Part shown: in pieces, positions 48,626 to 64,000 of the stretch
Position numbering within the stretch: position 1 is the first letter of the stretch
Layout of the letters: each line of letters starts with the position of its first letter
Assembly: GCF_900141825.1 (NCBI RefSeq)
Contig: NZ_FQYQ01000013.1
Location: forward strand, 1 to 64,000
From: Pseudobutyrivibrio xylanivorans DSM 14809
GTDB taxonomy: Bacteria > Bacillota > Clostridia > Lachnospirales > Lachnospiraceae
Length of the DNA stretch: 64,000 bases
Reading direction: 5' to 3'
Made by a program: the position numbers and the translations under genes
The notes under the pieces: model-generated
What the model was told of the DNA's origin: nothing
Database searches by the model: none
Seen by the model: only the letters and a program-made list of their open reading frames with translations

Positions 48626-48772
48626 ATGGCAAGAAAATCAAGATATATGGGTTACGTGGAAGGGGTAGAGCAGCTTAAGGCAAAGCATGAGAAGCGTAGA
48701 AAAATCGAAAAGGAAAAGTCTCTTACCAGGAAACTGAATCAGTACAAGAAGGAGGTGAGGGAGAATGGGTAA
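48626..48772 (+). CDS. 48-residue basic protein
   Basis: The frame ATG 48626 to TAA 48772 has a TTGGAGG ribosome site and overlaps the following gene by eight bases, the packing of the neighbouring genes. The peptide is highly basic and helical (YVEGVEQLKAKHEKRRKIE...KSLTRKLNQYKKEVRENG), probably a short coiled coil. A GGGCAG/CTGCCC stem lies upstream (about 48580-48602). Similar small genes occur between CD1107- and ArdC-type genes; function unknown. Confidence 0.6.
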   Translation: MARKSRYMGYVEGVEQLKAKHEKRRKIEKEKSLTRKLNQYKKEVRENG

Positions 48773-50099
48773 AACCACAAATTTTGATCCTGAGAAGGCA
48801 GCTGAGCAGCGAAAAGCTGAAATGAAGGATATTACAGAGAGGCTGGAAAAGGGTGTGCAGGATGTCTTTGGTTCAGAGCAGTTTCAAAATTTACTGGATA
48901 CCATGGCTAAGTTTCCGCATTACTCGGTGAATAACAATATCCTTATCATGATGCAAAAGCCGGATGCAACGCTTGTTCAATCCTATACCGGATGGAAGAA
49001 AATGGGACGCTTTGTAAAGAAGGGTGAGAAGGGAATCCGTATCCTTGCTCCGGCTCCTTTTAAGTTGGAAAAAGAACAGGAAAAGGTGGATGAGGCTGGC
49101 AAAGTCATTCTTGATAAAGATGGCGAAGCTGTAAAGGAAAAGGTGGAAATCAATCTTACTGCATTTAAGCCTGTGAGTACTTTTGATATCTCTCAGACAG
49201 AAGGTGAACCACTTCCATCCATCGGTGTAGATGAGCTTACCGGAAGTGTGGAAGGATATCAGACATTCTTTGAAGCAATCAAGGCAGCAAGTCCTGTACC
49301 TATCGGATTTGAGGATATCAAGTCCGGTGCCAAAGGATATTTTCATGTTGAAGATAATCGCATTGCTATCAATAACGGCATGAGTGAGATCCAGACAGTA
49401 AAGACTGCAATTCATGAAATGGCTCATGCCAAGCTTCATAACCTGGAAGCCCAGAAAGATAATAAGCAATCAAAAAACAGTAAAGAGGTTGAAGCTGAGA
49501 GCGTTGCCTATACTGTGTGTCAGCACTATGGCATTGATACTTCTGATTACAGTTTTGTTTATGTTGCAACCTGGTCTCAGGGTAAAGAGATGCCTGAGTT
49601 AAAAGAATCACTTAATACGATTCGTGAGGCAGCAGCTGATCTTATTACAAAGATTGATGCGAAAGTACAGGAGCTTACAGCTGAGAAGGAACCTATCAGT
49701 TTCTATGTAGCTGAATGTGGTGAGTTTCATTCCATGGGTGAGTTCCATGAGAATCTGACCTTGCAGCAGGCAGTAGACATCTATAAGTCGATTCCATCTG
49801 ACAGGATGAATGGTGTAAAGACAATCGGCCTTGTCATCAAAGACGATCAGATTCTTGCTAATGAATATGACCTGGTTGTTGGCAACAGATTGAATATGCA
49901 GGAGATAAAAGATATCCTTCCTGATCTGGCAGAACATCCTCTTGTTGTGAAGGCAGCAGATGAAATTGCAAAGCTTATGCCTGAACTTGAAGGGGTTGAG
50001 AAAAGTGAGTCTGTATCCAAGAAACTGAAGGAGAAGACAAAAGATGTTAAACCTAAAAAAGCTAAGGCATCAAAGAAGAAGGAGGAAGTTGCTATATAA
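48765..50099 (+). CDS. ArdC-like antirestriction/ssDNA-binding protein
   Basis: 444 residues. The N-terminal ArdC domain (FPHYSVNNNILIMMQKPDATLVQSYTGWKKMGRFVKKGEKGIRI) binds single-stranded DNA; it is followed by a metallopeptidase-like motif HEMAHAKLH with a downstream Glu in EVEAESVAYTVCQHYG. Residues about 305-400 (FYVAECGEFHSMGEF...TLQQAVDIYKSIP) form a YodL/LPD-type domain. The Lys-rich tail is basic. ArdC proteins protect entering single-stranded DNA from host restriction. This fits an element that itself carries a type I system. Confidence 0.8.
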   Translation: MGKTTNFDPEKAAEQRKAEMKDITERLEKGVQDVFGSEQFQNLLDTMAKFPHYSVNNNILIMMQKPDATLVQSYTGWKKMGRFVKKGEKGIRILAPAPFKLEKEQEKVDEAGKVILDKDGEAVKEKVEINLTAFKPVSTFDISQTEGEPLPSIGVDELTGSVEGYQTFFEAIKAASPVPIGFEDIKSGAKGYFHVEDNRIAINNGMSEIQTVKTAIHEMAHAKLHNLEAQKDNKQSKNSKEVEAESVAYTVCQHYGIDTSDYSFVYVATWSQGKEMPELKESLNTIREAAADLITKIDAKVQELTAEKEPISFYVAECGEFHSMGEFHENLTLQQAVDIYKSIPSDRMNGVKTIGLVIKDDQILANEYDLVVGNRLNMQEIKDILPDLAEHPLVVKAADEIAKLMPELEGVEKSESVSKKLKEKTKDVKPKKAKASKKKEEVAI

Positions 50100-50115
50100 G
50101 ATAAAATTTTTCAAC

Positions 50116-50144
50116 TACGCTTTTTTGCGTATATGATATATAAT
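50116..50144 (+). promoter_or_regulatory. Operator-like hairpin and -10 before the XRE gene
   Basis: TACGC-TTTTTT-GCGTA (50116-50131) is an inverted repeat placed where the -35 should be, with a perfect TATAAT at 50139-50144. No good -35 is visible, so this promoter may need activation, or the dyad may be the regulator's site. Confidence 0.45.
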
Positions 50145-50177
50145 AAGTCCATGCCATAATTAATTTGGAGGTAGGAC

Positions 50178-50663
50178 ATGGAATTATTTGCTGAGAATCT
50201 AAAGAGATTAAGAAAAGAACGAAATATGACACAAGATCAATTAGCGCATGTTTCTGATATTCCGAAGGGGACAATTTGCAACTACGAGCAGAATCGTGGG
50301 GGCTGCGATCCTTCGCTTCACAATCTAATGGTTTTGGCAGATATTTTTGATGTTACTCCTTACAATCTATATTATGGAGGAAAGAAAGAAATGACTACAA
50401 ATTCTATTTACATGGATGAAATTTTAAGTGAGCTTTTAGAGTTGGACGATGAGGCTATTGCGGAGATTCATGATAGCGAACTCAATGGCGTAAACTTACC
50501 TAAATTGAGTGTTTCAGAAGATGTAATAACTAGCCTTAAGAATCAATGGAACAAAGATGTTGTATATCCTAATCGTGGTTTGTATAAAAATTACATTGAA
50601 CAGACAATTAGAAGATATGCGCAGGACAGGCAAGGTTGGAAAAAGAAATTCGGATTAGATTAA
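50178..50663 (+). CDS. XRE-family regulator within the conjugation region
   Basis: 161 residues. Residues about 6-62 are a Cro/C1 helix-turn-helix (LKRLRKERNMTQDQLAHVSDIPKGTICNYEQNRGGCDPSLHNLMVLADIFDVTPYNLYYG). The C-terminal 100 residues are helical and unrecognised. It has its own promoter region and lies between ArdC and topoisomerase genes, so it probably controls the topB-mob block. Confidence 0.8.
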   Translation: MELFAENLKRLRKERNMTQDQLAHVSDIPKGTICNYEQNRGGCDPSLHNLMVLADIFDVTPYNLYYGGKKEMTTNSIYMDEILSELLELDDEAIAEIHDSELNGVNLPKLSVSEDVITSLKNQWNKDVVYPNRGLYKNYIEQTIRRYAQDRQGWKKKFGLD

Positions 50664-50727
50664 TATTTATCGATTAGGCGTCTTGGAGAAATCCAAGGCG
50701 CTTATTTTATTATTAGGAGGTGTTTAT

Positions 50728-52614
50728 TTGAAATTAGTGATTGCAGAAAAGCCTTCAGTAGCTCAGTCCCTGGCGAGAGTCATTGGGGCTAATCAGAAAA
50801 AAGATGGCTACCTAGAAGGTAATGGTTATATTGTCAGCTGGTGCGTAGGGCATCTGATTGAGCTGGCGAATCCTGAACATTATGATGAGAAATATAAGAA
50901 GTGGCGCAAGGAAGATTTACCGATTTTCCCTGCGCCATTTTCATATCAGGTAACAGCTTCCACGAAAAAGCAGTATCAGGTATTAAAGGATCTCATGAAG
51001 CGTTCTGATGTAGACAGCCTTGTAGAGGCAACTGATGCAGGGCGTGAGGGAGAGCTTATCTTTCGTCTTGTTTATAAGCAGGCAGGATGTAAAAAGCCGT
51101 TTGAGAGACTTTGGATTTCATCCATGGAAGATAAAGCAATCAAAAATGGCTTTGCTAATTTGAAACCTGGCGCAAACTATGATGATCTCTATGAAGCTGC
51201 ACTTTGTCGTGAACGTGCGGACTGGCTTGTAGGTATAAATGCTACAAGATTCTTTTCTACAGTTTATGGTCAGACCTTAAATGTTGGACGTGTTATGACT
51301 CCTACACTCGCAATGATTGTAGAGCGTGAAGCTGAGATCAAGGGTTTTAAGCCTGAGAACTTCTATACCGTTCAGATGCTGGTATCCGGTGTTGCAGTTA
51401 CCTCAAAACGCTTCAAAACTAAGCAGGAGGCAGAGGAACTAGTAGAGAAAATCAATGCAACTGATAATGCGAAAATTTCTAAAATGGAGACCACTACGAA
51501 AACTGAGAAGCCACCACTTCTTTATGATCTGACAAGTCTTCAGAGGGATGCTAATAAGTATTATGGCTTTACTGCTCAGCAGACTCTTGACTATACCCAG
51601 AGTCTTTATGAGAAAAAGCTTGTTACTTATCCAAGAACAGACAGCAGATATCTGACTGATGATATGGATGATAGCACAGCTCGCCTTTGTTGCCTGATGA
51701 AAGAAAAGTACGGATATACGAAGATGGCTCCTGTCCATACAAAGCAAGTGCTAAATAGTAGCAAGGTATCTGATCACCACGCGATAATTCCTACAGAAAA
51801 TGTATCAGAAGCTGATTACTCAGAAATCCCTTCCGGAGAACAGAAAATACTTGGACTTGTAACAGCAAGGCTACTTTCTTCTGTTGGAGATACAGCAGAG
51901 ATTACAGAATATGCTTTGGAAGTAGAATGTGCCGGCGAAGTATTCAAGGCTAAGAGTAAATGCTTTACAAAGCCTGGATGGCACCTTTTGGAAGACTGGA
52001 TTCTTGGTAAGCAGAAAGAAGAGGATGAAGATTCATCAGACAAGAAAGACGCTGGTGGTTCTCACAGCGTTTTAGAAATCTTAGAAACAGATGCATCCCT
52101 TCTATCTGAAGGACGTGAGCTTCCCGCGAGAGATCCAATGGTAAAGGAAGGAAAGACAACTCCAAAGAAACGTTTTACAGAGGACTCTTTACTTTCTGCT
52201 ATGGAATCAGCAGGAGCAAAGGAAACACCTGACGAAGTAGAGCGTAAAGGTCTTGGTACTCCAGCAACACGCGCTGGTGTAATTGAAAAGCTGGTTCGTA
52301 TCGGTTTTGTAGAAAGACAGGGTAGTAAGAAAACAAAATATCTAGTTCCAACTGATAAGGGAACTTCTCTTATTACCGTTATGCCGGAACAGATTCAGTC
52401 AGCATCTATGACAGCTGAGTGGGAACAGAAACTCTTGGAAGTGGAAAAGCAGGATATTGCTTCTGAAGACTTTATGGCTGAGATCAAGGATATGATTGTT
52501 GATCTGATTGAGACTTATGAGCCTGTAAAGGGGGCAGATAAGTTATTTCCACCACGCCAATACAAACAGTATAAAAAGTATCCAAAGAAAGGAGCATCCA
52601 GATGGCAAAGATGA
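50728..52614 (+). CDS. topB: DNA topoisomerase III of the element
   Basis: 628 residues starting at TTG 50728 (TTAGGAGGTG site; protein MKLVIAEKPSVAQSLARVIG). The in-frame ATG at 50683 has no ribosome site. Toprim motifs include EATDAGREGELIF, and the active tyrosine is in YPRTDSRYL (about 305-313). The usual C-terminal zinc fingers are missing and the protein ends with a basic KQYKKYPKKG tail. Conjugative elements carry this enzyme for strand processing during transfer. The next gene overlaps by 13 bases. Confidence 0.93.
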   Translation: MKLVIAEKPSVAQSLARVIGANQKKDGYLEGNGYIVSWCVGHLIELANPEHYDEKYKKWRKEDLPIFPAPFSYQVTASTKKQYQVLKDLMKRSDVDSLVEATDAGREGELIFRLVYKQAGCKKPFERLWISSMEDKAIKNGFANLKPGANYDDLYEAALCRERADWLVGINATRFFSTVYGQTLNVGRVMTPTLAMIVEREAEIKGFKPENFYTVQMLVSGVAVTSKRFKTKQEAEELVEKINATDNAKISKMETTTKTEKPPLLYDLTSLQRDANKYYGFTAQQTLDYTQSLYEKKLVTYPRTDSRYLTDDMDDSTARLCCLMKEKYGYTKMAPVHTKQVLNSSKVSDHHAIIPTENVSEADYSEIPSGEQKILGLVTARLLSSVGDTAEITEYALEVECAGEVFKAKSKCFTKPGWHLLEDWILGKQKEEDEDSSDKKDAGGSHSVLEILETDASLLSEGRELPARDPMVKEGKTTPKKRFTEDSLLSAMESAGAKETPDEVERKGLGTPATRAGVIEKLVRIGFVERQGSKKTKYLVPTDKGTSLITVMPEQIQSASMTAEWEQKLLEVEKQDIASEDFMAEIKDMIVDLIETYEPVKGADKLFPPRQYKQYKKYPKKGASRWQR

Positions 52615-52976
52615 AAAAAATCAGAAAATGGGATGAAGTCACAGGAAATGCAGTAGAGGAACAGATTCCTGAGTCCATTGATCCGATAGAGGATGTTGGG
52701 GCAGGTCCATCCATAAGTAGAAATCATATGCGAGGCATCGAGGATATGGTGGAACAGAATGATAATTCATTTGACGGAATCATTAATAATGTGCCTGCAG
52801 CTCCTGTGCCGGATTTTGCAGAAATCAATGAAAAGGCAGATCAGGAGGATATTATTGCAGACACCAAGGCTTCTGTGATGGAGAAGATAAAAGAGCAGCA
52901 GGAAAAAGTGAAGCTGGCTCCAATACCGGAACCTGAGAAGAAGACTCCTGTGATTTGTCCCTGCAGGGAGATGTAA
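52602..52976 (+). CDS. Small acidic protein of the mobilisation block
   Basis: 124 residues, acidic, probably largely disordered (NDNSFDGIINNVPAAPVPDFAEINEKADQEDI), with a Lys-rich start and the short ending CPCREM. The position between topB and mobC matches the DUF4316-type small proteins of related elements, but I am unsure of the family. It starts within topB and ends three bases before mobC. Confidence 0.55.
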   Translation: MAKMKKIRKWDEVTGNAVEEQIPESIDPIEDVGAGPSISRNHMRGIEDMVEQNDNSFDGIINNVPAAPVPDFAEINEKADQEDIIADTKASVMEKIKEQQEKVKLAPIPEPEKKTPVICPCREM

Positions 52977-52978
52977 TC

Positions 52979-53308
52979 ATGAATAATAGAACGGAGCAGT
53001 TTCATTTCTTTGCAACTCCGGAGGAAGCTAAACTGATTCGTGACAGGGAGAAAGAAATCGGCATCTTAAATGAGAGTGCTTATCTTCGAAAAATGGCGAT
53101 TGATGGTTATCTCATCCAGATGGATTTAAGTGATGTCAAAGAGGCCGTAAGGCTTCTTGGCATCACATCTTCCAATATGAATCAGTATGCAAAGAAAGCA
53201 AATGAAACCGGCAGTATCTACAAAGAAGATATCGATGATATCAGACTTCATCAGGAAGAACTTTGGAAAGTGATGAAGGAAATACTAAAGCGCTTGTCTA
53301 CGATTTAG
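52979..53308 (+). CDS. mobC: MobC-type relaxosome protein
   Basis: 109 residues from ATG 52979 (GGGAGATG site); the in-frame ATG at 52955 lies inside the previous gene. The N-terminal ribbon-helix-helix (TEQFHFFATPEEAKLIRDREKEIGILNESAYLRKMAIDGYLI) is typical of MobC accessory proteins, which bind the transfer origin and help the relaxase nick. The relaxase gene follows in 18 bases. Confidence 0.8.
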   Translation: MNNRTEQFHFFATPEEAKLIRDREKEIGILNESAYLRKMAIDGYLIQMDLSDVKEAVRLLGITSSNMNQYAKKANETGSIYKEDIDDIRLHQEELWKVMKEILKRLSTI

Positions 53309-53326
53309 GAAAGGAGGTGAATGCGC

Positions 53327-54760
53327 ATGGCGGCTACAAGACTTATCACGATGCACCAGAATAAAGGTAAAAGCGTAGCGAAGTCTCTCAGCGATAGAAC
53401 AGATTATGCCAAGAATGGAGAGAAGACCGAAAATGGTCAATTCATCAGTTCCTACGCCTGCCAGGCTGAGAGTGTTGATGAAGAATTCATGCTCTCGAAA
53501 AGAGAATATGAGCGTCTGACAGGAAGACATCCCAGGGGCAATATCATCGCTTATCAGATCAGGCAATCCTTTAAGCCGGGAGAAATCACACCGGAGGAAG
53601 CGAATCAGGTAGGCTATGAAACTGCCATGCGATTTACCAAAGGCAATCATGCTTTTATCGTAGCGACGCATACGGATAAGGCGCATATTCACAATCACAT
53701 CATCTTTAATTCCACGAGTCTTGACTGTACCCATAAGTTTAGAGATTTCTTTTTTGTTGGACTGGCTCTGCAGAGATTATCGGATATCATCTGCCTAGAG
53801 CATGGACTGTCTGTCATTGAAAAGAAAAAGCCTAGTGAGCGTGTTAAGCGAACCACTTATCCTGAGAAGAAATCCTTTCGCGATGATATTAGAGATGCGA
53901 TTGATCAGATTCTTAAGGAAGGTAGCACAAAAGATTTTGATGAGCTGCTTTATAAACTGGAAGATGCCGGATACGAGATTAAGCGTGGAAAGCACATTTC
54001 TCTAAAAGGAAAAGGTCAGAAGCGTTTCATACGGCTGCGCTCTCTGGGGGATGGTTATACAGATGAGGACCTTAAGAAGATTCTTGCCGGTGAGATGGAG
54101 CATGCTTTCTACGATAATGAAAAAGCCGAAAAGCAGCCAAAGACTTACCTGCGAAAAAAGGAAAATCATGAGTTTGACCTTCTTATCGATATTCAAAAGA
54201 AGCTGGCCCAGGGCAAGGGAAAATATTATGTTCGCTTTGCCAAGAACTTTAATACAAAGCAGGTGGCTAAGGCAGTTTTATATCTAAAGCAGCATGACAT
54301 TCGAAGCTATGATGATCTGGAGAAAAATGTGAAAACAGCAACAGAGCGATTTACGAAAATTTCAGCTTCCATAAAAGAAAAGGAAAAGCGACTTGCTGAG
54401 ATTCAGGTCTTGAAGAAACATATCTTTGATTACTTTAAGACAAAAGACGTATACGCAGATTATCGTAAATGCGGATACAGCAAGAAGTTCCTGGAAGAGC
54501 ACAGACAGGAAATCCTGCTTCATAAGGCTGCCAAGAATGCATTTGATGAGCTTCATCTAAAGAAACTTCCTAAGATAAAAGACCTCAGCGCTGAGTACGC
54601 TGAAATACTTGCAGAAAAGAAAAAGCTGTACGGTGAATATCGTCAGGTCAAGAAAGATATGCAGGAGATTCAAAGAGCAAAATATGATATCGACCAGTTC
54701 CTTAAAAGCGATGAAGAGCAGAAGAAGGAACGCGTCAGAAAACACAATATCACTCGATAA
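53327..54760 (+). CDS. MobP-type relaxase
   Basis: 477 residues from ATG 53327, nine bases after AAGGAGG; ATG 53321 is too close to the site. The relaxase domain (about 1-250) carries the three-His metal motif in HTDKAHIHNHIIFNST and an N-terminal tyrosine region (DYAKNGEKT). The rest is long charged helices including LKEGSTKDFDELLYKLEDAGYEIKRGKHIS. It nicks the transfer origin and pilots the single strand. MobC precedes it; a structured gene-free region that probably contains oriT follows. Confidence 0.9.
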   Translation: MAATRLITMHQNKGKSVAKSLSDRTDYAKNGEKTENGQFISSYACQAESVDEEFMLSKREYERLTGRHPRGNIIAYQIRQSFKPGEITPEEANQVGYETAMRFTKGNHAFIVATHTDKAHIHNHIIFNSTSLDCTHKFRDFFFVGLALQRLSDIICLEHGLSVIEKKKPSERVKRTTYPEKKSFRDDIRDAIDQILKEGSTKDFDELLYKLEDAGYEIKRGKHISLKGKGQKRFIRLRSLGDGYTDEDLKKILAGEMEHAFYDNEKAEKQPKTYLRKKENHEFDLLIDIQKKLAQGKGKYYVRFAKNFNTKQVAKAVLYLKQHDIRSYDDLEKNVKTATERFTKISASIKEKEKRLAEIQVLKKHIFDYFKTKDVYADYRKCGYSKKFLEEHRQEILLHKAAKNAFDELHLKKLPKIKDLSAEYAEILAEKKKLYGEYRQVKKDMQEIQRAKYDIDQFLKSDEEQKKERVRKHNITR

Positions 54761-55510: not shown

Positions 55511-57025
55511 GTGGATATAAATACAAATATCAATGAAGAAACCACGAGCCAACAATTGTTTTCGCATTTGTTTGAGGCTTGTAATATTTTGCGTGGCCCA
55601 ATTAACCAGGATGATTATAAGAGCTACGTAACACCGATTCTTTTCTTCAAGAGATTATCGGATGTTTATGATGAGGAAACTCAGATTGCGTTAGATGAAT
55701 CTGACGGTGATGAAGAGTATGCAGCATTTCCGGAAAATCATAGTTTTGTGATTCCAGAAGGTTGCCATTGGAAGGATGTTCGTGAAGTTAGCGAAAATGT
55801 TGGAACTGCTATTGTTAATGCAATGTATGGTATTGAAAGAGCAAATCCGGATAGATTGGCTGGAGTGTTTAGCAGTTTCGATGATGCTAACTGGACAGAT
55901 AAAACAAAGCTTAGCGATGAGAGATTAAAAGATCTTGTTGAGCATATGTCTAAAATCCATGTAGGAAACAATGATTACGCTGCAGATGTAATGGGCGATG
56001 CTTACGAGTACCTTATCAAGAAATTTGCGGATTTGTCTAAAAAGAATGCTGGTGAGTTCTATACACCAAGAACTATTGTAAAGCTTTTGGTTATGCTTAT
56101 GGCTCCACAAGCAGGAGAAACAGTTTATGATCCTGCATGCGGAACTGGTGGAATGCTTATTGAAGCAATTCACTATATGCATAATGACCAACTTACTTAT
56201 GGAAAAATATATGGACAGGAAAAGAATCTTTCGACATCAGCAATAGCAAGAATGAATCTATTTTTGCATGGCGCTAGAGATTTCAAGGTTACACAGGGAG
56301 ATACTTTAAGAAGTCCGAATTATATAAATGGTGGCCAGTTGCAGACGTTTGATTGTGTTATAGCAAATCCTCCATTTGGATTAAAAGCATGGGGCGCTTC
56401 TGCTTTTGAAATGGATGCGTATGGAAGAAATATCTGGGGATGTCCTTCAGATTCAAATGCTGATTTCGCATGGCTTCAGCATATGATTAAGTCTATGAAT
56501 CCAGCTACGGGGCGTGTTGCTGTAGTTATGCCACAGGGGGTTTTGTTCCATGGTGGCAAAGAAGGAGAAATTAGAAAACAAATTATTGAGTCTGATAAGA
56601 TAGAATGCATTATTACTTTGGTGGGAGGCATATTCTATGGCGCAGGTGTGTCTGCTTGCTTAATCTTGATGAACAATCAAAAGGTTCCAGATCACAAGAA
56701 CAAGATATGTATGATTGATGCAACAGAGATTTATACACCTGCAAGAGCACAGAACTATATGTCTGAAGATGATATTCAGAAAGTCTTTAATTTGTTTTCG
56801 AATTATAAAGATGAAATTGAAAAAGTGAAGATTGTTTCACTTGATGATATCAGAGAAAAAGACTACACATTATCGGTAAATACATATATAGAGAAAAAAG
56901 CACAGGAAATTGTGCCACCAAGCGTAGTCCGTTCTGAATATATCAATGCTGTAAAAGAAGCTAAAGAATCTGAACAAAGATTACTAAAGCTTCTTACAGA
57001 AGGAGGTTATTTGGATGAGCAATAA
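55511..57025 (+). CDS. hsdM: Type I methyltransferase subunit HsdM, copy 1
   Basis: 504 residues, GTG start behind AAGGAG. The helical HsdM_N domain (about 12-160) is followed by the N6-adenine methyltransferase: SAM motif DPACGTGGM (207-215) and catalytic NPPF (286-289). It pairs with HsdS and modifies adenine in the recognition site. It overlaps the second hsdM by 11 bases. The two proteins share layout and many positions (FKRLSDVYDEE, IPEG-HWKDVR, NLFLHG) but are clearly different, so both are probably functional. Confidence 0.92.
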   Translation: MDINTNINEETTSQQLFSHLFEACNILRGPINQDDYKSYVTPILFFKRLSDVYDEETQIALDESDGDEEYAAFPENHSFVIPEGCHWKDVREVSENVGTAIVNAMYGIERANPDRLAGVFSSFDDANWTDKTKLSDERLKDLVEHMSKIHVGNNDYAADVMGDAYEYLIKKFADLSKKNAGEFYTPRTIVKLLVMLMAPQAGETVYDPACGTGGMLIEAIHYMHNDQLTYGKIYGQEKNLSTSAIARMNLFLHGARDFKVTQGDTLRSPNYINGGQLQTFDCVIANPPFGLKAWGASAFEMDAYGRNIWGCPSDSNADFAWLQHMIKSMNPATGRVAVVMPQGVLFHGGKEGEIRKQIIESDKIECIITLVGGIFYGAGVSACLILMNNQKVPDHKNKICMIDATEIYTPARAQNYMSEDDIQKVFNLFSNYKDEIEKVKIVSLDDIREKDYTLSVNTYIEKKAQEIVPPSVVRSEYINAVKEAKESEQRLLKLLTEGGYLDEQ

Positions 57026-58511
57026 AATAACGCTTGAAGAATTAGAATCATATTTATGGGGATCAGCAGTATTACTTCGTACACATATAGATGCGGGGGC
57101 ATATAAGCAATACATTTTTCCATTGTTGTTTTTTAAGCGCTTATCAGACGTCTACGACGAAGAATGTGAGGCAATTTTAAAAGAGAATGATGGTGATGAA
57201 GAAGCGCTTCTTTGGGAAGAAAATCATCTTTTTATGATTCCTGAAGGGGCGCATTGGAAAGACGTTCGCGCAAAAACTGAGAATATAGGTGCAGCATTAG
57301 TGGACGCTTTTTACAAAATACAAAGTGCCAATAGTGAGAAACTTCAGGGTATATTTGGAGATGCAGCTTGGACTAATAAGAATAGACTTCCTGATCGTCT
57401 TTTAAAAGATTTGATTGAACATTTTAGTACAAAAACGTTGTCGATTTCAAATTGCCCAGAGGATGAACTTGGACAAGGATATGAATACTTAATAAAACAA
57501 TTTGCTGATGATAGTGGGCATACGGCTCAAGAGTTTTACACCAATAGAACAGTAGTACATTTGATGACAAAGCTATTAAAGCCAAAGTCTCAGGAAACTA
57601 TTTATGATCCGACATGTGGAAGTGCAGGTATGCTCATTTCTTGTATTGCTGCATTAAAAGATAGCAAACAGGAATGGCGTAATGTAAAACTATATGGACA
57701 AGAGATTAACCAATTAACGTCTTCTATTGGGAAAATGAATTTGTTCCTACATGGGATAAAAGATTTTTTTATTGTAAATGATGATACTTTAAAGTCACCA
57801 GCTTTTCTTGAAAACGGTGAATTGAAAAAGTTTAACGTTATATTGGCTAATCCACCATACTCAATTAAACAATGGGATAGAGCTTCGTTTGAATCAGACA
57901 AGTATGGCCGAAATTTTCTTGGAACGCCACCTCAGGGAAGAGCTGATTTTGCGTTTTTTCAACATATATTAAAAAGTCTTGATAAAGAAAATGGTAGATG
58001 TGCGATTCTCTTTCCGCATGGAATACTTTTTAGAAATGAAGAGGAAGAAATGCGGACTAAGTTAGTACAGTCAGATTTGGTTGAGTGCGTCATAGGAATA
58101 GGAAAAAATCTGTTTTTTAACTCTCCGATGGAGGCATGTATAGTAATTTGTAGAACGCGAAAAGAAAAAGATCGTGTGGGAAAAGTTTTATTTATTGATG
58201 CCCGAGAAGAAGTGACTAGAAAGAATACTCAGAGCTATTTGGAGGATCACCATATTGATAAAATTGTTTCTGCATACGAAGGATATAAAGAGTTGGATGG
58301 TTTTTCAGCTATTGCTAGCATAGATGAGATTCAGAAAAACCATTCCAAGCTAAGTATTGCTTTATACGTGCGATGTGTAAATCAAAAAGAGAATGAAGAA
58401 ACAATAGAAGTTAAAGATCAGATTGATGAATGGATTACGAGCATGAATACCTATCATCAAGGAGTTGATGAAATAATGTCACTTTTGGAGGAATCAGTTA
58501 ATGAAATATAA
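57015..58511 (+). CDS. hsdM: Type I methyltransferase subunit HsdM, copy 2
   Basis: 498 residues, also complete: HsdM_N domain (about 8-155), SAM motif DPTCGSAGM (198-206) and NPPY (279-282). Copy 1 has NPPF and DPACGTGGM. It starts inside copy 1 and overlaps hsdS by 11 bases, so all three are made as one coupled set. Normal type I enzymes use two copies of one HsdM; a two-gene arrangement suggests a heteromeric M2S complex or partner choice. Confidence 0.92.
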   Translation: MSNKITLEELESYLWGSAVLLRTHIDAGAYKQYIFPLLFFKRLSDVYDEECEAILKENDGDEEALLWEENHLFMIPEGAHWKDVRAKTENIGAALVDAFYKIQSANSEKLQGIFGDAAWTNKNRLPDRLLKDLIEHFSTKTLSISNCPEDELGQGYEYLIKQFADDSGHTAQEFYTNRTVVHLMTKLLKPKSQETIYDPTCGSAGMLISCIAALKDSKQEWRNVKLYGQEINQLTSSIGKMNLFLHGIKDFFIVNDDTLKSPAFLENGELKKFNVILANPPYSIKQWDRASFESDKYGRNFLGTPPQGRADFAFFQHILKSLDKENGRCAILFPHGILFRNEEEEMRTKLVQSDLVECVIGIGKNLFFNSPMEACIVICRTRKEKDRVGKVLFIDAREEVTRKNTQSYLEDHHIDKIVSAYEGYKELDGFSAIASIDEIQKNHSKLSIALYVRCVNQKENEETIEVKDQIDEWITSMNTYHQGVDEIMSLLEESVNEI

Positions 58512-59637
58512 GATAGGTGATATTGCTAAAGAAATATCAGTTCGTATAAATGATCCAGCAAATAGTGGTTATGACAAATTTGTTGGACTGGAGCATTATG
58601 AATCAGGAGAAGTGCGCATCCATAATTATGGTTCAACAGAGTTATTAGGGTCAGCTATGAAAGAATTTAAGGCCGGAGATATTCTTTTGGCAAGAAGAAA
58701 TGTTTATCTACGACGAGCTTCAGTGGTTGATTTTGATGGAATTACTTCTGGAGATTCTATTGTTCTTAGAGTCGAGAATCCGGTTATTGCAAGAATTGTT
58801 CCTTTCATTCTGAATACAGATGATTTTTGGAATTTTGCAGATATGTATTCCGATGGAACAATGTCGAAAAGACTGTCTCCAAAAATTCTAAAAGAGTATG
58901 AATTTGAATTACCAGAAGGTGATAAGCTTAAATGGTTAGCGGATACGCTTTGGGCAGCATATGAGACCAAAGAAAAATATGTGAGTCTACTACAGAAGAC
59001 AGATGAACTTGTCAAATCGCAATTTATCGAGATGTTTGGGGATCCGGAGGAGAACCCTTTGGGATGGGATACAAGGCCACTTTTGACGATGGGTTCGTGC
59101 AAAAATGGTATGAATTTCCATAGCAATGATTCCGGTGTGGAAATCAACTGTCTCGGTGTTGGGGATTTTAAGGACTACGATGTGATTGAGGATACCCACA
59201 TGCTACCGGCTGTTTCTCTGAATGAGATGCCCTCAGAGGATTATCTGCTGAAAGACGGCGATATCGTATTTGTTCGATCAAATGGCAACAAGACTATGGT
59301 CGGCAGGAGCGTTATAGTTTATCCCGGTGATAATCCAACGACTTTTAGCGGTTTTTGTATCAGGTATCGCAATGAAGACGAGTCTATTATGGTGCCTTAT
59401 TTGTTGCGGGTCTTGAAATCAGAATCTGTGAGAAAACAGATGTATGGCAGGGGCGCTAATATTCAAAACCTGAACCAAAAGACTCTTGCGGCTCTCAATA
59501 TACCGATTCCTCCTATGGAGGCACAAAGACAGTATGTTGAGATTGTGGAACAGAGCGATAAATCAAAATTTGAAATCCAGCATGCTATAAATGATTTGAA
59601 TGCAACAATACGTGCGCTGGTACAACAAACGGAATAA
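58501..59637 (+). CDS. hsdS: Type I specificity subunit HsdS (expressed copy)
   Basis: 378 residues, two target-recognition domains. Domain 1 spans about 1-150, then a conserved helix (LADTLWAAYETKEKYVSLLQKTDELVKSQFIEMFGD). Domain 2 spans about 183-345, then the second helix (EQSDKSKFEIQHAINDLNATIRAL). Domain 2 is bracketed by a 20-bp repeat (A1, 59015-59034) and a 21-bp repeat (B1, 59549-59569), which also bracket two silent cassettes downstream. The domain-2 DNA is richer in GC than the rest of the locus, a sign of separate origin. It is followed 59 bases later by a recombinase gene. Confidence 0.92.
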   Translation: MKYKIGDIAKEISVRINDPANSGYDKFVGLEHYESGEVRIHNYGSTELLGSAMKEFKAGDILLARRNVYLRRASVVDFDGITSGDSIVLRVENPVIARIVPFILNTDDFWNFADMYSDGTMSKRLSPKILKEYEFELPEGDKLKWLADTLWAAYETKEKYVSLLQKTDELVKSQFIEMFGDPEENPLGWDTRPLLTMGSCKNGMNFHSNDSGVEINCLGVGDFKDYDVIEDTHMLPAVSLNEMPSEDYLLKDGDIVFVRSNGNKTMVGRSVIVYPGDNPTTFSGFCIRYRNEDESIMVPYLLRVLKSESVRKQMYGRGANIQNLNQKTLAALNIPIPPMEAQRQYVEIVEQSDKSKFEIQHAINDLNATIRALVQQTE

Positions 59638-61246
59638 GGTGTCCGCCATGAAATCCTCCCATGAAAATATGAAGACATTGGATTAAGGAGGAAATTATGA
59701 ATATAGATTTGATACAACAGGTAGAGTCTCTTATGGCCGGGACCCTCAATAACATTCAGCTTGAACGCTTACATAACGTTTTAATACAAACATTTGGAAA
59801 TGAAGAAATTAAAGACGATGAGAAAGATTACCTTACATCGTTTATTGCTGCAAAACGAGTTGAGGGTTGCTCTGATAAAACAATTCGTTATTACCAGGCA
59901 ACAATAAAAACTGCTCTTGATAAGATTGGTAAGAGTGTAAAAAGAATTACCACTGATGATTTGAGAGGATATATTGATTCTTACCAACAGGAGAGTGGTG
60001 CTAGTAGGGTGACCGTGGACAACATACGAAGAATATTATCGAGTTTCTTTACATGGCTTGAAACCGAAGATCATATTATGCGGAATCCAATGAAGCGTAT
60101 TCATAAGGTTAAAACAGGGAAGGCTGTCAAAGAAACATACTCCGATGAGGACCTTGAAGTGATGCGGGATGGGTGCGATAACATAAGGGATCTTGCAATG
60201 ATAGATGTTTTAGCCTCAACGGGAATTAGAGTTGGGGAACTTGTAACACTAAACCGTGATGATATCGATTTTGAAAACCGTGAATGTATTGTTTTGGGAA
60301 AGGGAAACAAAGAAAGGCGTGTTTATTTCGATGCACGTACTAAGATACACCTGCAACAGTATTTGAACGGGCGTGATGATGATAATCCGGCGCTTATTGT
60401 TTCTCTTCAAAAACCCCACGAACGACTACAGATAAGTGGAGTGGAAATACGGCTTAGAGAACTTGGTAAGAGATTATCCATAAATAGAGTTCATCCGCAT
60501 AAATTCCGACGGACTCTTGCCACTGTAGCTATTGATAAAGGAATGCCTATTGAACAGGTGCAACAGCTTTTAGGGCACCAGAGTATAGATACAACGTTAC
60601 AATACGCTATGGTAAACCAAGCCAATGTGAAGAGCTCTCACAGAAGGTTTATTGGATAGTAATCGCAATTTATCGAGATGTTTGGCGATATGGAATCAAA
60701 TCCTATGGGTTGGAAGGAGTCAACATTAGGAGAAGAATGCTATTACATAAAGGATGGGCCGCATAAGTCACCTAAATACATTGATGATGAGTCGGGAATA
60801 CCATTTATTTCAACTCGAAACGTTGTGAATGGTGATGGCATTGACTGGAGTACAGCAAAGTATATTTCCGAACAGGATTATGAGGAATGTATAAAAAAAT
60901 GTAAGCCTGAGAAAGGGGACATCCTTTATTCAAAGGGCGGAACAACAGGTATTGCGAAGTATGTTGACACTGATCGTAAGTTTGCTAACTGGGTACATGT
61001 TGCAGTCCTGAAATTTGGGAATCAGCTTAATGGCAGGTTCCTAGAAAGAATGCTTAACATGGACTACTGTTATCAACAGTCACAAAGATTAACAAAGGGA
61101 ATAGCTAACCGAGATTTTGTTTTAAGTGCCATCGCACAAGTGAGAATTTACGTGCCACCAGTTAATCTTCAAGAAAGGTATGTAGCTTTTGTCGAACAGA
61201 GCGATAAATCAAAATTTGTTGTTTCAAATCGCAATTTATCGAGATG
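59015..61246 (+). repeat. Three direct copies of a 20-bp hsdS repeat (A sites)
   Basis: AATCGCAATTTATCGAGATG occurs exactly at 59015-59034 (A1, inside hsdS), 60661-60680 (A2) and 61227-61246 (A3), all on the plus strand; A1 and A2 agree for five further bases (TTTGG). In the hsdS frame it encodes SQFIEM. Spacing A1-A2 is 1646 bp and A2-A3 is 566 bp. I found no inverted copy. These are the likely recombination sites at the 5' edge of each specificity cassette. Confidence 0.9.
59697..60659 (+). CDS. Tyrosine recombinase of the hsdS locus
   Basis: 320 residues, XerC/D type. The SAM-like core-binding domain is at about 45-130. The catalytic domain has Arg178 (STGIRVGEL), Lys near 202 (GKGNKERRV), His268-x-x-Arg271 (HPHKFRRT), His294 (LLGHQS) and Tyr303 (TLQYAM), so it is complete. 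It has a strong AAGGAGG site. It lies between the expressed hsdS and two silent cassettes, the place of the recombinases that shuffle hsdS in other bacteria (PsrA-like). Its reading frame runs with its stop directly against the A2 repeat. It is not the integrase expected for the conjugative element itself. Confidence 0.88.
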   Translation: MNIDLIQQVESLMAGTLNNIQLERLHNVLIQTFGNEEIKDDEKDYLTSFIAAKRVEGCSDKTIRYYQATIKTALDKIGKSVKRITTDDLRGYIDSYQQESGASRVTVDNIRRILSSFFTWLETEDHIMRNPMKRIHKVKTGKAVKETYSDEDLEVMRDGCDNIRDLAMIDVLASTGIRVGELVTLNRDDIDFENRECIVLGKGNKERRVYFDARTKIHLQQYLNGRDDDNPALIVSLQKPHERLQISGVEIRLRELGKRLSINRVHPHKFRRTLATVAIDKGMPIEQVQQLLGHQSIDTTLQYAMVNQANVKSSHRRFIG

Positions 61247-61247
61247 A
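60678..61247 (+). CDS. Silent hsdS cassette 1 (single target-recognition domain)
   Basis: In the hsdS frame the sequence reads SQFIEMFGDMESNPMGWKESTLG... from the A2 repeat, then a full recognition domain (YIKDGPHKSPKYIDDESGIPFISTRNVVNG... IANRDFVLSAIAQVRIYVPP) to EQSDKSKF at B2, then a nine-residue tail and a stop. It has no own start signal apart from the ATG in IEMFGD. It would become active only if joined to the first half of hsdS at the A repeat. It is a different DNA specificity from the expressed domain 2. Confidence 0.8.
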   Translation: MFGDMESNPMGWKESTLGEECYYIKDGPHKSPKYIDDESGIPFISTRNVVNGDGIDWSTAKYISEQDYEECIKKCKPEKGDILYSKGGTTGIAKYVDTDRKFANWVHVAVLKFGNQLNGRFLERMLNMDYCYQQSQRLTKGIANRDFVLSAIAQVRIYVPPVNLQERYVAFVEQSDKSKFVVSNRNLSR

Positions 61248-61807
61248 TAGATCCTTATATCAAGAATGATAAAACAGTAGTAATGGAGGACATGGTTCTT
61301 CCTGATAGACCTATAACTTATGGCATAGTAAAACCGGGAACGAATGTTGAAGGCGGGGTGCCAGTTGTACGTGTTAAAGATTATACGGACGGCATAATTC
61401 ATACTAACGATATGCTTCATACAAAGCCGGAATTGAATAATAAGTATTTGAGATCAACTTTAAATGAGGGCGATGTACTTCTTTCAATTGGCGGTACCAT
61501 TGGCCGTGTAGCAATTGTTCCGGTTGATTTAGTCGGTGCTAACATCACTCAGCACACAGCCAGAATATCTTTGAAATCAGAATATAATCCAATATGGTTG
61601 AAGGGATTGTTGGAGACTTCGTTGATGCAAGAGATGATGGCAAAAAATACACTTGGTGTAGCTCAGGTTGGATTAAATCTTAAGGACATACGTCAGTTCA
61701 AAATGCCAGACATGCCTTGTGAAGAACAGAGTGAACTTGTAAGGCTATATCAACAGAGCGATAAATCAAAATATATATGTAATGTTACGAGGAGGTTTTT
61801 ATGTTAA
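61244..61807 (+). CDS. Silent hsdS cassette 2 (single target-recognition domain)
   Basis: From the A3 repeat the frame reads SQFIEMIDPYIKNDKTVVMEDMV..., then a recognition domain (GVPVVRVKDYTDG, LSIGGTIGRVAIVPVDLVGANITQHTARI, GVAQVGLNLKDIRQFKMP) to QQSDKSKY at B3, and stops seven bases into hsdR. The FGD motif after QFIEM is missing, so this cassette joins differently from cassette 1. No ribosome site precedes it. It is a third alternative specificity. Its end covers the ribosome site and start of hsdR. Confidence 0.78.
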   Translation: MIDPYIKNDKTVVMEDMVLPDRPITYGIVKPGTNVEGGVPVVRVKDYTDGIIHTNDMLHTKPELNNKYLRSTLNEGDVLLSIGGTIGRVAIVPVDLVGANITQHTARISLKSEYNPIWLKGLLETSLMQEMMAKNTLGVAQVGLNLKDIRQFKMPDMPCEEQSELVRLYQQSDKSKYICNVTRRFLC

Positions 61808-64000
61808 ACGAAGATACTATTGAGCAGATGCTTATATCGGTCCTTCAAAAAAATGGATGGACATATATTCCGGCAGATAAGATGCCGCGTCAGGATTCAG
61901 AGGTTATGGTTGAATCCATGGTTAAGGCTGCCCTAATACGATTGAATCCAGAAATAGCAGAAGAACCAAGTCGTGCAGATGAAGTCATATATAAGCTTAG
62001 ATCGTTGATATTGTCCGCACAGCCACATAACCTGATTGCTCAGAATGAGACATTTAAGAAACTGATATTTGAAGAAAACTCATTCCCGTTTGGTAAGGAT
62101 GGTAGAATGGTTCCTATTCGTTTTTTCGGTACGATGACTAAGGAAAACCTTGCTTTAAATGAGTATGTTGTAACAAACCAGTGGTGCTTTCCAACAAGAG
62201 AAGGTGGTAAGCGTCTTGATTTAGTTTTATTAGTAAATGGATTTCCACTTATTATTGGTGAACTTAAGACTCCTTTCCGTGATGCAATTACTTGGCTAGA
62301 TGGAGCAAAGGATATTGCAGATTATGAGAAGAGTATTCCTCAGATGTTTGTAACGAATGTATTCAACTTTGCATCTGAAGGAAAGTGTTATAGATATGGT
62401 TCTGTAAATATGCCTATTGATATGTGGGGACCATGGCATACTCCAGATGACAAAACAGAAGGTACGCTTATTTCAGTGCAGAAGAGTGTTGTAGACATGA
62501 TTACGCCTGAGAAGGTAATGGATATATTCCAGTTCTTTACTATGTTTGCAACGGATAAGAAGTATAGAAAGTACAAGATTATTTGCCGTTATCAGCAGTA
62601 TGAAGGTGCAAACCTTATAGTTGAGCGTGTTAAGGCCGGATATCCAAAGAAAGGTCTTATCTGGCATTTCCAAGGTTCCGGTAAATCCTTGCTTATGGTA
62701 TTTGCAGCATATAAGCTTCGAATGATTCCGGAATTGAAGAATCCAACAGTTGTTATTGTTGATGACAGATTGGATTTGGAAACACAGATTACAGCTACCT
62801 TCAATGCATCTGACATACCTAACATGGCAGCTGCTCGTACAAAAGAAGAACTTATAAAGTTCTTTGAAGGTGATATGCGTAAAATCCTCATCACTACAAT
62901 ATTCAGATTTGGTGATGTAGATAAGTGTTTGAATGAGAGCAGCAATATCATTCTTATGGTAGATGAAGCTCATAGAACTCAGGAAGGTGACCTTGGCGAG
63001 AAGATGAGAACAGCCTTACCTAATGCTTTCTTCTTTGGATTGACAGGAACGCCTATCAATAGAGTTGATAAGAATACATTTAGAACATTTGGGGCTGAAG
63101 AAGATAAGAGTGGATATATGAGTAAGTATTCATTCTCGGATTCTATTCGTGATGGAGCGACACTTCCTCTTAACTTTGAAGCTGTGCCAGTCGAGCTGCA
63201 TGTAGATAAAGAAAAAATCAATGAAGAATTTGATTTGATGACAAAGGACTTATCGGAAGAGGATAAGGCAGAGCTTTCACGCAGAGTCAACATGAAGGCT
63301 ATCATGTATGACAGAAAGCGAATAAAAAAAGTATGTGAGCATATAGCGAAACATTACCAGGAAAAGATAGAGCCTAATGGTTATAAGGGGCAGGTGGTTG
63401 TTTATGACCGTGATTGTTGCCTTATGTATAAGGAAGAGCTTGATAAGTTGTTAGGACCAGACGCTTCTACGATTGTCATGGATACTAACAATGATAAAGC
63501 TGATAAGTATAAGGCTTACAGAAGAGACCGTGATGAAGAAAGTAAGCTTTTAGATTACTACAGAGATCCAAAGACACCATTAAAGCTTGTTATTGTTACA
63601 GCAAAGCTTTTAACAGGATTTGATGCGCCAATTTTGCAGGTAATGTATTTGGACAAGCCTATGAAAGATCATAATCTTTTACAGGCTATTTGTCGTACCA
63701 ACAGAACCTATGATTCAGGTAAAACGTTTGGATTGATTGTTGATTATATTGGGATTTTTGATAATGTAGCAAATGCTTTGAACTTCGATGAAGAAGGTAT
63801 GAAAAAAGTTATTACCAACATTGAAGAAGTAAAGAAGAAGTTACCTCAGCTTGTTGATGATTGTATGCAGTTTTTTGATGGTATTGATACAAAAGGTGAT
63901 GATTGGGAAATTTTGCTGCAAGCTCAAGAAAGACTACCTGATGATAGAACAAAGGATAGGTTGGCTGCATACTTTAGAGTACTTTCACGTGCATGGGAAG
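61801..64000 (+). CDS. hsdR: Type I restriction subunit HsdR (runs off the window)
   Basis: An open frame from ATG 61801 (AGGAGG site) to the end of the window, 733 codons with no stop, so 3'-incomplete here. The nuclease domain has Asp140 (RLDLVLLVNG) and Glu154-Leu-Lys156 (GELKTP). The motor has Walker A GSGKS (292-296), VDEAH, GLTGTP and QAICRTNRTY. It moves DNA and cuts at a distance when HsdS finds unmodified sites. It directly follows silent cassette 2, so cassette movement must preserve this junction. Confidence 0.95.
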   Translation, partial: MLNEDTIEQMLISVLQKNGWTYIPADKMPRQDSEVMVESMVKAALIRLNPEIAEEPSRADEVIYKLRSLILSAQPHNLIAQNETFKKLIFEENSFPFGKDGRMVPIRFFGTMTKENLALNEYVVTNQWCFPTREGGKRLDLVLLVNGFPLIIGELKTPFRDAITWLDGAKDIADYEKSIPQMFVTNVFNFASEGKCYRYGSVNMPIDMWGPWHTPDDKTEGTLISVQKSVVDMITPEKVMDIFQFFTMFATDKKYRKYKIICRYQQYEGANLIVERVKAGYPKKGLIWHFQGSGKSLLMVFAAYKLRMIPELKNPTVVIVDDRLDLETQITATFNASDIPNMAAARTKEELIKFFEGDMRKILITTIFRFGDVDKCLNESSNIILMVDEAHRTQEGDLGEKMRTALPNAFFFGLTGTPINRVDKNTFRTFGAEEDKSGYMSKYSFSDSIRDGATLPLNFEAVPVELHVDKEKINEEFDLMTKDLSEEDKAELSRRVNMKAIMYDRKRIKKVCEHIAKHYQEKIEPNGYKGQVVVYDRDCCLMYKEELDKLLGPDASTIVMDTNNDKADKYKAYRRDRDEESKLLDYYRDPKTPLKLVIVTAKLLTGFDAPILQVMYLDKPMKDHNLLQAICRTNRTYDSGKTFGLIVDYIGIFDNVANALNFDEEGMKKVITNIEEVKKKLPQLVDDCMQFFDGIDTKGDDWEILLQAQERLPDDRTKDRLAAYFRVLSRAWE

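Follow-up and report, generated by a model that had tools for sequence, protein, structure and literature searches.

A putative cassette-exchange system for the second recognition domain of HsdS in a type I restriction-modification locus of Pseudobutyrivibrio xylanivorans

Background

The kind of system described here is known through the tvr locus of the pneumococcal SpnIV type I restriction-modification (RM) system, named in Croucher 2014 (PMC4263131), for which experiments showed excision and reintegration by way of circles, with direct repeats of two kinds and a tyrosine recombinase resident in the locus (Kwun 2018, PMC6265443). A transcriptional (terminator-like) attenuator lies ahead of the tvr recombinase (PMC6265443). 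SpnIII/cod/ivr (PsrA) and the other inverting hsdS loci (PsrA/CreX type) also have a resident tyrosine recombinase and spare target recognition domains (TRDs), but they carry inverted repeats and their DNA flips; in such loci one recombinase works on several repeat classes (PMC7096588). We analysed a stretch of 64,000 nucleotides from Pseudobutyrivibrio xylanivorans DSM 14809 (assembly GCF_900141825.1, contig NZ_FQYQ01000013.1, positions 1 to 64,000, forward strand; the window), in which a type I RM operon carries one complete hsdS, a tyrosine recombinase gene and two headless second recognition domains. Based on the design of the repeats in this operon and on related loci, we consider it likely that three second domains are exchanged in frame by recombination between sites with identical centres, a circle leaving through one site type and returning through the other.

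Engineered cassette exchange with heterospecific lox or FRT sites uses one recombinase on sites with the same arms and incompatible spacers. The locus in the window resembles it in having one recombinase, the same arms and, as proposed here, cassette exchange between sites whose incompatibility is suggested by their sequences; the engineered systems differ in being man-made and in using other recombinases.

Results and discussion

Gene content of the locus

The operon occupies 55.5-64 kb of the window, entirely on the + strand, in the order hsdM-hsdM-hsdS-recombinase-TRD2b-TRD2c-hsdR:

55511..57025, + strand: hsdM-1, N6 adenine methyltransferase subunit (Pfam N6_Mtase, E 1.9e-95, and HsdM_N; PADLOC MTase_I)
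57015..58511, + strand: hsdM-2, second methyltransferase subunit, overlapping hsdM-1 (Pfam N6_Mtase, E 3.4e-87, and HsdM_N; PADLOC MTase_I)
58501..59637, + strand: hsdS, 378 amino acids (aa), with a fixed TRD1 and a second domain TRD2a (Pfam Methylase_S, E 7.7e-12; PADLOC Specificity_I; TRD profile matches)
59697..60659, + strand: tyrosine recombinase, 320 aa (Pfam Phage_integrase, E 3.6e-34; NF040815 above cut-off; alignment)
60678..61247, + strand: TRD2b, headless second domain, silent cassette (Pfam Methylase_S, E 8e-13)
61244..61807, + strand: TRD2c, headless second domain, silent cassette (Pfam Methylase_S, E 2.5e-8)
61801..64000, + strand: hsdR, restriction subunit, running past the window end (Pfam HSDR_N, E 4.2e-26, SWI2_SNF2 and T1R_D3-like)

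An earlier note on this DNA had described an hsdS followed by a tyrosine recombinase and two headless recognition domains, and this is borne out, since hsdS, the recombinase and both headless TRDs are open frames with the expected Pfam domains. The gap between hsdS and the recombinase is 59 bp. TRD2a, TRD2b and TRD2c are mutually distinct (28-33% identity), and TRD1 resembles none of the three. In an alignment of 18 sequences the recombinase residues R178, K202, H268, R271, H294 and Y303 are invariant.

The array resembles integrons in that these, too, are cassette arrays moved by a tyrosine recombinase, and the earlier note called it "integron-like". As a statement of kinship this is not supported. 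The recombinase scores 242.7 bits against NF040815, a XerA-type model whose title also mentions integron integrase (cut-off 220). For the integron-integrase subfamily models its scores lie far below the cut-offs, at 63.9 bits with TIGR02249 (cut-off 265) and 32.7 bits with NF011946 (cut-off 435); attC and attI sites were not searched for. Moreover, the cassettes in the window are gene parts that would be joined in frame.

The A and B repeats

Each second-domain unit is framed by an exact 20-bp repeat (A) and an exact 21-bp repeat (B), with three copies of each, all direct, as the earlier note had stated:

59015..59034, - strand: A1, with strong arm CGATAAA and centre TTGCGA read on the - strand (exact repeat; site model)
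59549..59569, + strand: B1, with strong arm CGATAAA and centre TCAAAA (exact repeat; site model)
60661..60680, - strand: A2, immediately 3' of the recombinase stop codon (exact repeat)
61195..61215, + strand: B2 (exact repeat)
61227..61246, - strand: A3 (exact repeat)
61752..61772, + strand: B3 (exact repeat)

The equal spacing of A1-A2 and B1-B2 (1646 bp) is also confirmed; it follows simply from the equal size of the first two cassettes, a and b, which both span 534 bp from A to B, against 525 bp for the third. No inverted exact copy of A or B occurs within the window. Across the 3.42-Mb assembly (57 contigs), a 17-nt core pattern of A and a 16-nt core pattern of B have three copies each, in forward orientation only, and the backward-control patterns for these cores have 0 matches. 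Inverted copies elsewhere, which would make this a standard invertible locus, are therefore excluded for this assembly.

To speak of "only direct repeats" is nevertheless incomplete. All exact copies are direct, but A and B hold a common half-site in opposite orientation, ATTTATCG in A and CGATAAAT in B. The reverse complement of A plus its flank reads CTCGATAAA-TTGCGA-TTTGA (A1, A3), and B reads AGCGATAAA-TCAAAA-TTTG (B1, B2). Both consist of a strong arm, CGATAAA, aimed into the cassette from either end, a centre of 6 nt and, on the outside, a weaker arm; at A2 and B3 this outer arm is degenerate. The centres are the same among copies within each class and different between A (TTGCGA) and B (TCAAAA). 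A and B thus look like one recombinase site type in opposite orientation with different centres. A looser frame, AAATCnnAATTT, is common to A and B in one orientation, with two positions differing.

Predicted products and proposed exchange

Computed exchange through A and B leaves hsdS in frame with its native tail, at 378 aa for cassette b and 375 aa for cassette c. The computed A1 x A2 and A1 x A3 deletions are also in frame (366 and 364 aa), with short foreign tails. Therefore, A1 x A2 excision followed by reinsertion via B, or the reverse, would swap domains and retain the recombinase.

The order of events that we propose, like the action of the recombinase and the matching of centres, draws on tyrosine-recombinase chemistry and on analogy with tvr. 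The resident recombinase would bind both site types and would exchange strands only between sites with the same centre, A with A and B with B. An A1 x A2 or B1 x B2 event would excise a 1646-bp circle carrying the recombinase and one domain, and its reinsertion via the other site type would exchange TRD2a for TRD2b and restore the native C-terminal tail; TRD2c would enter in the same way, via A3/B3. TRD1 would then be expected to pair with a, b or c, giving three bipartite target sequences. Recombinase levels may be held low by a hairpin covering the ribosome-binding site, a feature of its relatives that is weak in the window. A locked state is possible if the excised circle is lost. The terminal lock through loss of the recombinase that the earlier note foresaw could arise via A1 x A2, but it would not be the sole outcome, because the swap would be completed, and the recombinase regained, once the same circle reinserts through B.

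The exchange system in this strain is probably active. Excision and reinsertion rather than flipping, as suggested in the earlier note, agrees with the direct repeats, the in-frame products and the A-to-B duplicates found in relatives (below). The parts of that proposal that find no support are the integron label and the view that known phase-variable type I loci usually invert, which overlooks the excision and reintegration of tvr/SpnIV via direct repeats (PMC6265443).

Related loci

Loci with related recombinases were collected from the genus (4 of 29 genomes at E <=1e-60, own included), from the family (30 of 397 genomes at E <=1e-90, own included; partial matches L035-L037 were not extended) and from genome contigs, of which the best 80 of 580 were used. 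A TRD profile built on the loci was run on 114 of them (33 + 80 + the window): 37 had three or more TRDs, all on the recombinase strand, in 45 the TRDs were spread over both strands, and 32 had too few, with strand labels that span only about 4 kb either side of the recombinase. The counted set comprises 36 one-strand loci, including L107, whose sites fail the site model, and 43 mixed-strand loci; left out were three from duplicate genomes (L077, L129, L150) and the 32 with fewer than three TRDs. The site pattern was applied unchanged to a held-out set of 30 loci from viral contigs, of which 7 are new one-strand and 8 mixed loci, with 2 one-strand loci already seen and 13 with too few TRDs left out.

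One-strand arrays make up 36 of the 79 classifiable distinct loci, a figure that is not a prevalence, because all loci were chosen by similarity to the window recombinase. A quick tree of 111 rows requires 3 changes between one-strand and mixed mode, so mode is largely conserved; in this tree 41 of 108 inner branches are poorly supported and no well-supported small set surrounds the window.

Site centres and the modes of rearrangement

Opposite-orientation site pairs never have identical centres in the 36 one-strand loci (0/168), compared with 53/106 such pairs in the 43 mixed-strand loci. Counted by locus, at least one such pair is present in 0/36 and 22/43, respectively. Same-orientation pairs have identical centres at 55/133 in one-strand and 40/97 in mixed-strand loci. 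The held-out set gives 0/11 opposite-orientation pairs with the same centre in its 7 one-strand loci, versus 13/25 in its 8 mixed loci. The repeated centre in mixed-strand loci is mostly CGATAA, CAATAA, TGATAA or CAAGAA; the sites of one such locus often share one centre, unlike those of the window, and these loci are presumably inverting.

When sites were defined by the strong arm only, so that pairs also take in first-domain and chance sites, centres agreed within loci in 41/88 A-A and 45/92 B-B pairs, and none of 223 A-B pairs was identical on the + strand. Between loci, agreement was 361/3482 pairs for A and 1034/4373 for B. The within-locus agreement lies above all 5000 shuffles for both A (41 pairs, shuffle mean 10.0) and B (45 pairs, mean 22.3).

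These counts bear on classical inversion, in which A and B would be an inverted pair flipping one cassette on and off. The strong arms of A and B are indeed inverted, and among mixed-strand relatives, whose TRDs lie on both strands, a single centre is often found in both orientations. Yet no opposite-orientation pair with the same centre is found in 36 + 7 one-strand loci, all TRDs of the window are on the + strand, and a flipped cassette would leave no complete hsdS here; we regard inversion as the least probable of the explanations considered. The lack of flipped TRDs in one-strand loci proves nothing in this respect, because the set is so defined.

In some one-strand loci (L123, L146, L042, L132, L110) the start of hsdS carries a site of a third class, which has a centre of its own (e.g. 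GGGGGG, GTCAGA). It would permit exchange of the first domain too.

Comparison with tvr and free shuffling

Like tvr, the window has type I RM genes and spare TRDs on one strand, a tyrosine recombinase among the TRD units, and two classes of direct repeat that bound TRD-coding units, with no inverted copies. The nearest comparison was made with a tvr-like locus of Streptococcus thalassemiae (L148) and not with S. pneumoniae TvrR itself: the two recombinases are 64% identical and fall in the same tree group, which is large (27 rows) and moderately supported (support 86). L148 has the gene order of tvr, namely hsdM, TRDs, a 78-aa open reading frame, a Doc-family gene, recombinase, TRDs and hsdR, and its 78-aa frame matches antitoxin models below threshold, among them TIGR02609, the family given for the tvr antitoxin in Kwun 2018 (PMC6265443). 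The window differs from tvr in several ways. It lacks the tvrAT toxin-antitoxin genes, it has two hsdM genes, only second domains are cassettes, and instead of a terminator-like attenuator only a possible hairpin over the recombinase start was met. Furthermore, both repeat classes of tvr share a core in the same orientation, whereas A and B share their strong arm in opposite orientation and differ in their centres.

The last difference separates our reading from free shuffling of the tvr type, in which every repeat would recombine with every other via a common core and A and B would not be incompatible. The repeat types described in Kwun 2018 share a core of about 11 bp in one orientation (PMC6265443), in L148 the start-of-hsdS and mid repeats both have the centre TCGGGA by our own reading of the repeats, and A and B of the window share the frame AAATCnnAATTT, two positions apart. 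On the other hand, the same centre occurs in 0/223 A-B pairs and 0/168 opposite-orientation pairs, within-class agreement exceeds that of the shuffles, and four duplicated cassettes in relatives all run from A to B. On balance free shuffling appears unlikely, although it is the alternative to which we give most weight.

Duplicated cassettes

Three loci of the one-strand set and one held-out one-strand locus carry a cassette on both sides of the recombinase, in each case from A to B: Anaerosphaera multitolerans (L086; 502 bp, 99.8% identical), Clostridium punense (L092; 567 bp, 100%), C. luticellarii (L106; 594 bp, 99.3%) and a viral-collection contig (L185; 542 bp, 99.6%). In all four the identity starts no more than about 5 bases from the A centre and stops no more than about 25 bases after the B centre, and the flanks are unrelated. 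In L078 an A-TRD-B-recombinase unit is present twice in tandem (1699 bp, 99.7% identical), a pattern that either the reinsertion of an excised circle or unequal exchange would produce. Two loci from different species, L115 and L144, have a cassette that is 90.7% identical from A to B, with no other stretch of at least 250 bp at 80% identity or more. Further internal repeats, in L098, L107, L143 and L144, are without the A-to-B pattern or were not characterised; in L144 a tandem duplication lies upstream of hsdS, at -2962..-2118 relative to the recombinase; its period is about 414 bp, and it begins near a site of the start-of-hsdS type.

RecA-dependent homologous recombination or gene conversion between the repeats, with the recombinase incidental, could also move cassettes. 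In pneumococcus, excision and shuffling partly persisted without TvrR at longer repeats, though in a recA mutant too (PMC6265443). The cassette common to L115 and L144 could also have arisen by homologous recombination between conserved regions. The four duplications, with sharp identity edges at the A and B centres and unrelated flanks, argue against this route. Repeats of 20-25 bp are, in addition, short for RecA-mediated exchange. We consider the RecA route very unlikely, without counting the presence of a recombinase in every array, which is no evidence because the loci were collected by recombinase.

Coding constraint

A and B encode conserved HsdS motifs (SQFIEM and QSDKSK), and the locus could be an inactive or nearly inactive relic, its repeats being conserved coding motifs and its headless domains duplication leftovers. 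No rearrangement was seen in this strain. However, DNA identity extends to synonymous positions. A scan of 11 loci near the window for the synonymous Ser codon in the A centre found it uniform among copies in all 10 loci giving at least two copies (TCG in four loci, TCT in five and TCA in one; 27 copies), and 0 of 100,000 shuffles were as concordant; no copy with at most two mismatches came from L074, and copies in other loci that had diverged further are uncounted. The codon is uniform although most of the cassettes are different and the downstream peptide is often wholly unlike. Likewise, TCNCAATTTATCG is kept where the peptide right after the site differs: IDPYIKN in the window, GLVKAR in L043, DSVSCK in L079 and AQIKKW in L084. 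The recombinase and all three cassettes are open and the catalytic residues intact, and a relic seems to us highly improbable. For copies within a locus, the synonymous codon and the differing downstream peptides lead us to reject codon constraint as the whole explanation of their likeness, while as the cause of the difference between A and B it is possible.

Points against same-centre exchange

Several observations weigh against the exchange between same-centre sites proposed above. The A and B centres encode different residues (SQ and SK), so that their difference could be coding-driven alone. On the + strand the two centres of the window (TCGCAA, TCAAAA) differ at two positions only, and 4 of the 223 A-B pairs differ at one, so that some A x B crossing is possible. 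All A-type centres of a locus agree in 15/28 loci and all B-type centres in 17/35 (strong-arm definition, first-domain and chance sites counted), and 5 of the 36 one-strand loci are without any identical same-orientation pair. The loci that supplied the site pattern are those of the 0/168 count, the only held-out set being that of the viral contigs, which is small and from which only exact copies of earlier loci were removed. In the Ser-codon count, two copies in L078 and two in L086 sit in duplicated cassettes and are not independent, and the tandem copy of L078, a metagenome assembly, may stem from the resolution of a graph loop.

No change of slot has been directly seen, as TRD2b and TRD2c are almost without relatives: among the 397 family genomes TRD2b has relatives in two, including its own (the other match is weak, at 41% identity), and TRD2c only in its own. 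Comparing all 111 distinct loci with one another (matches of at least 250 bp at 80% identity or more) revealed no TRD cassette in a different slot between close relatives, the best candidates (L079/L083 and L067/L068) being negative. A second strain of the locus was not found in the genus, family, contig, plasmid, phage or viral searches, from which records very near the window may be missing. In the search for a before/after comparison, no recombinase exceeded 73% identity in the viral contigs or 65% in 13 plasmid and 7 phage records.

A possible hairpin at the recombinase start

One further feature of the window lies in the gap between hsdS and the recombinase:

59646..59698, + strand: possible RNA hairpin that would cover the Shine-Dalgarno sequence and the start codon of the recombinase (signal across the family; not significant for the window by itself)

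Taken alone, the window hairpin is not significant (z -1.57, with 12/200 shuffles as good; z -0.9 in a second estimate). Across the set of loci, however, the 71-nt region around the recombinase start has a more stable fold than its shuffled versions, with a mean z of -2.65 (n=84). In the same set of loci the mean is -0.14 for starts of hsdM (n=48; Mann-Whitney p 1.5e-13) and +0.13 for those of hsdR (n=36; p 5.6e-13). The Shine-Dalgarno sequence is paired upstream in 47/84 recombinase, 10/48 hsdM and 5/36 hsdR starts. The fold signal is similar in both modes (mean z -2.78 in one-strand and -2.97 in mixed loci), but Shine-Dalgarno pairing of the recombinase is commoner in mixed (27/36) than in one-strand loci (10/28). 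A hairpin enclosing the recombinase ribosome-binding site and start codon is present in many relatives, e.g. L079, L083, L086, L046 and L040. The simplest reading of this putative structure is a translational throttle on the recombinase. No start-codon hairpin for these recombinases, and no incompatible centres in hsdS arrays, were found described in the titles, abstract openings and passages of the literature covered, supplements lying outside that scope. As far as this literature goes, then, the site design appears to be new within a kind of system already known through tvr.

We put forward tentatively, and with slightly less than even confidence, a natural cassette exchange with orthogonal sites, in which, within one recombinase family, the 6-nt centre alone would set the mode: a centre common to the sites at both ends of a domain would give inversion, and different centres cut-and-reinsert, in register, with a hairpin throttle tending to occur in both modes.

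Genomic surroundings and distribution

Ahead of the operon (48765-54760) are genes for an ArdC-type antirestriction protein, a type IA topoisomerase and a relaxase, and about 15 kb after it, at contig positions 79708-81417 (L039:15708-17417), is a large serine recombinase. Given these conjugation-type genes near the locus, a conjugative or mobilizable element may carry this RM locus. After hsdR, at contig positions 64713-71391 (L039:713-7391) and onward, PADLOC matches to ZacA, ZacB and ZacC are followed by a macro-domain protein and a KAP NTPase; this region is likely a defence island.

Relatives of the recombinase occur on plasmids (13 records, including Ligilactobacillus and Lactococcus) and in 7 phage-filed records, of which 6 are unannotated faecal contigs. 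The close relatives L078, L146, L117, L126 and L143 are titled as very distant organisms (gammaproteobacterium, Akkermansia, Ruminobacter and Methanobrevibacter bins), which reflects either wide transfer or misbinned contigs.

Paired adjacent hsdM genes occur in 8 of the 114 loci (the window, L073, L076, L078, L079, L083, L084 and L086), none of them mixed-strand, with an hsdM match upstream in 77/114 loci overall; the held-out one-strand loci L166 and L185 also carry two adjacent hsdM genes. Two adjacent hsdM genes perhaps indicate a heteromeric M1-M2-S enzyme.

Conclusions

One large REBASE survey (PMC7394358) targeted inverted repeats, and the term "direct repeat" is absent from its main text; one-strand arrays are therefore probably undercounted. 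If the centre rule is true, the switching mode could be told by a simple test on the sequence, one enzyme family would come with a natural collection of many site pairs, and the way in which cassettes keep their register would have an explanation that is easy to test. For Pseudobutyrivibrio xylanivorans itself, a self-varying methylation system may travel with a mobile element, and the defence locus of this gut bacterium could apparently swap which DNA sequence gets marked and cut.

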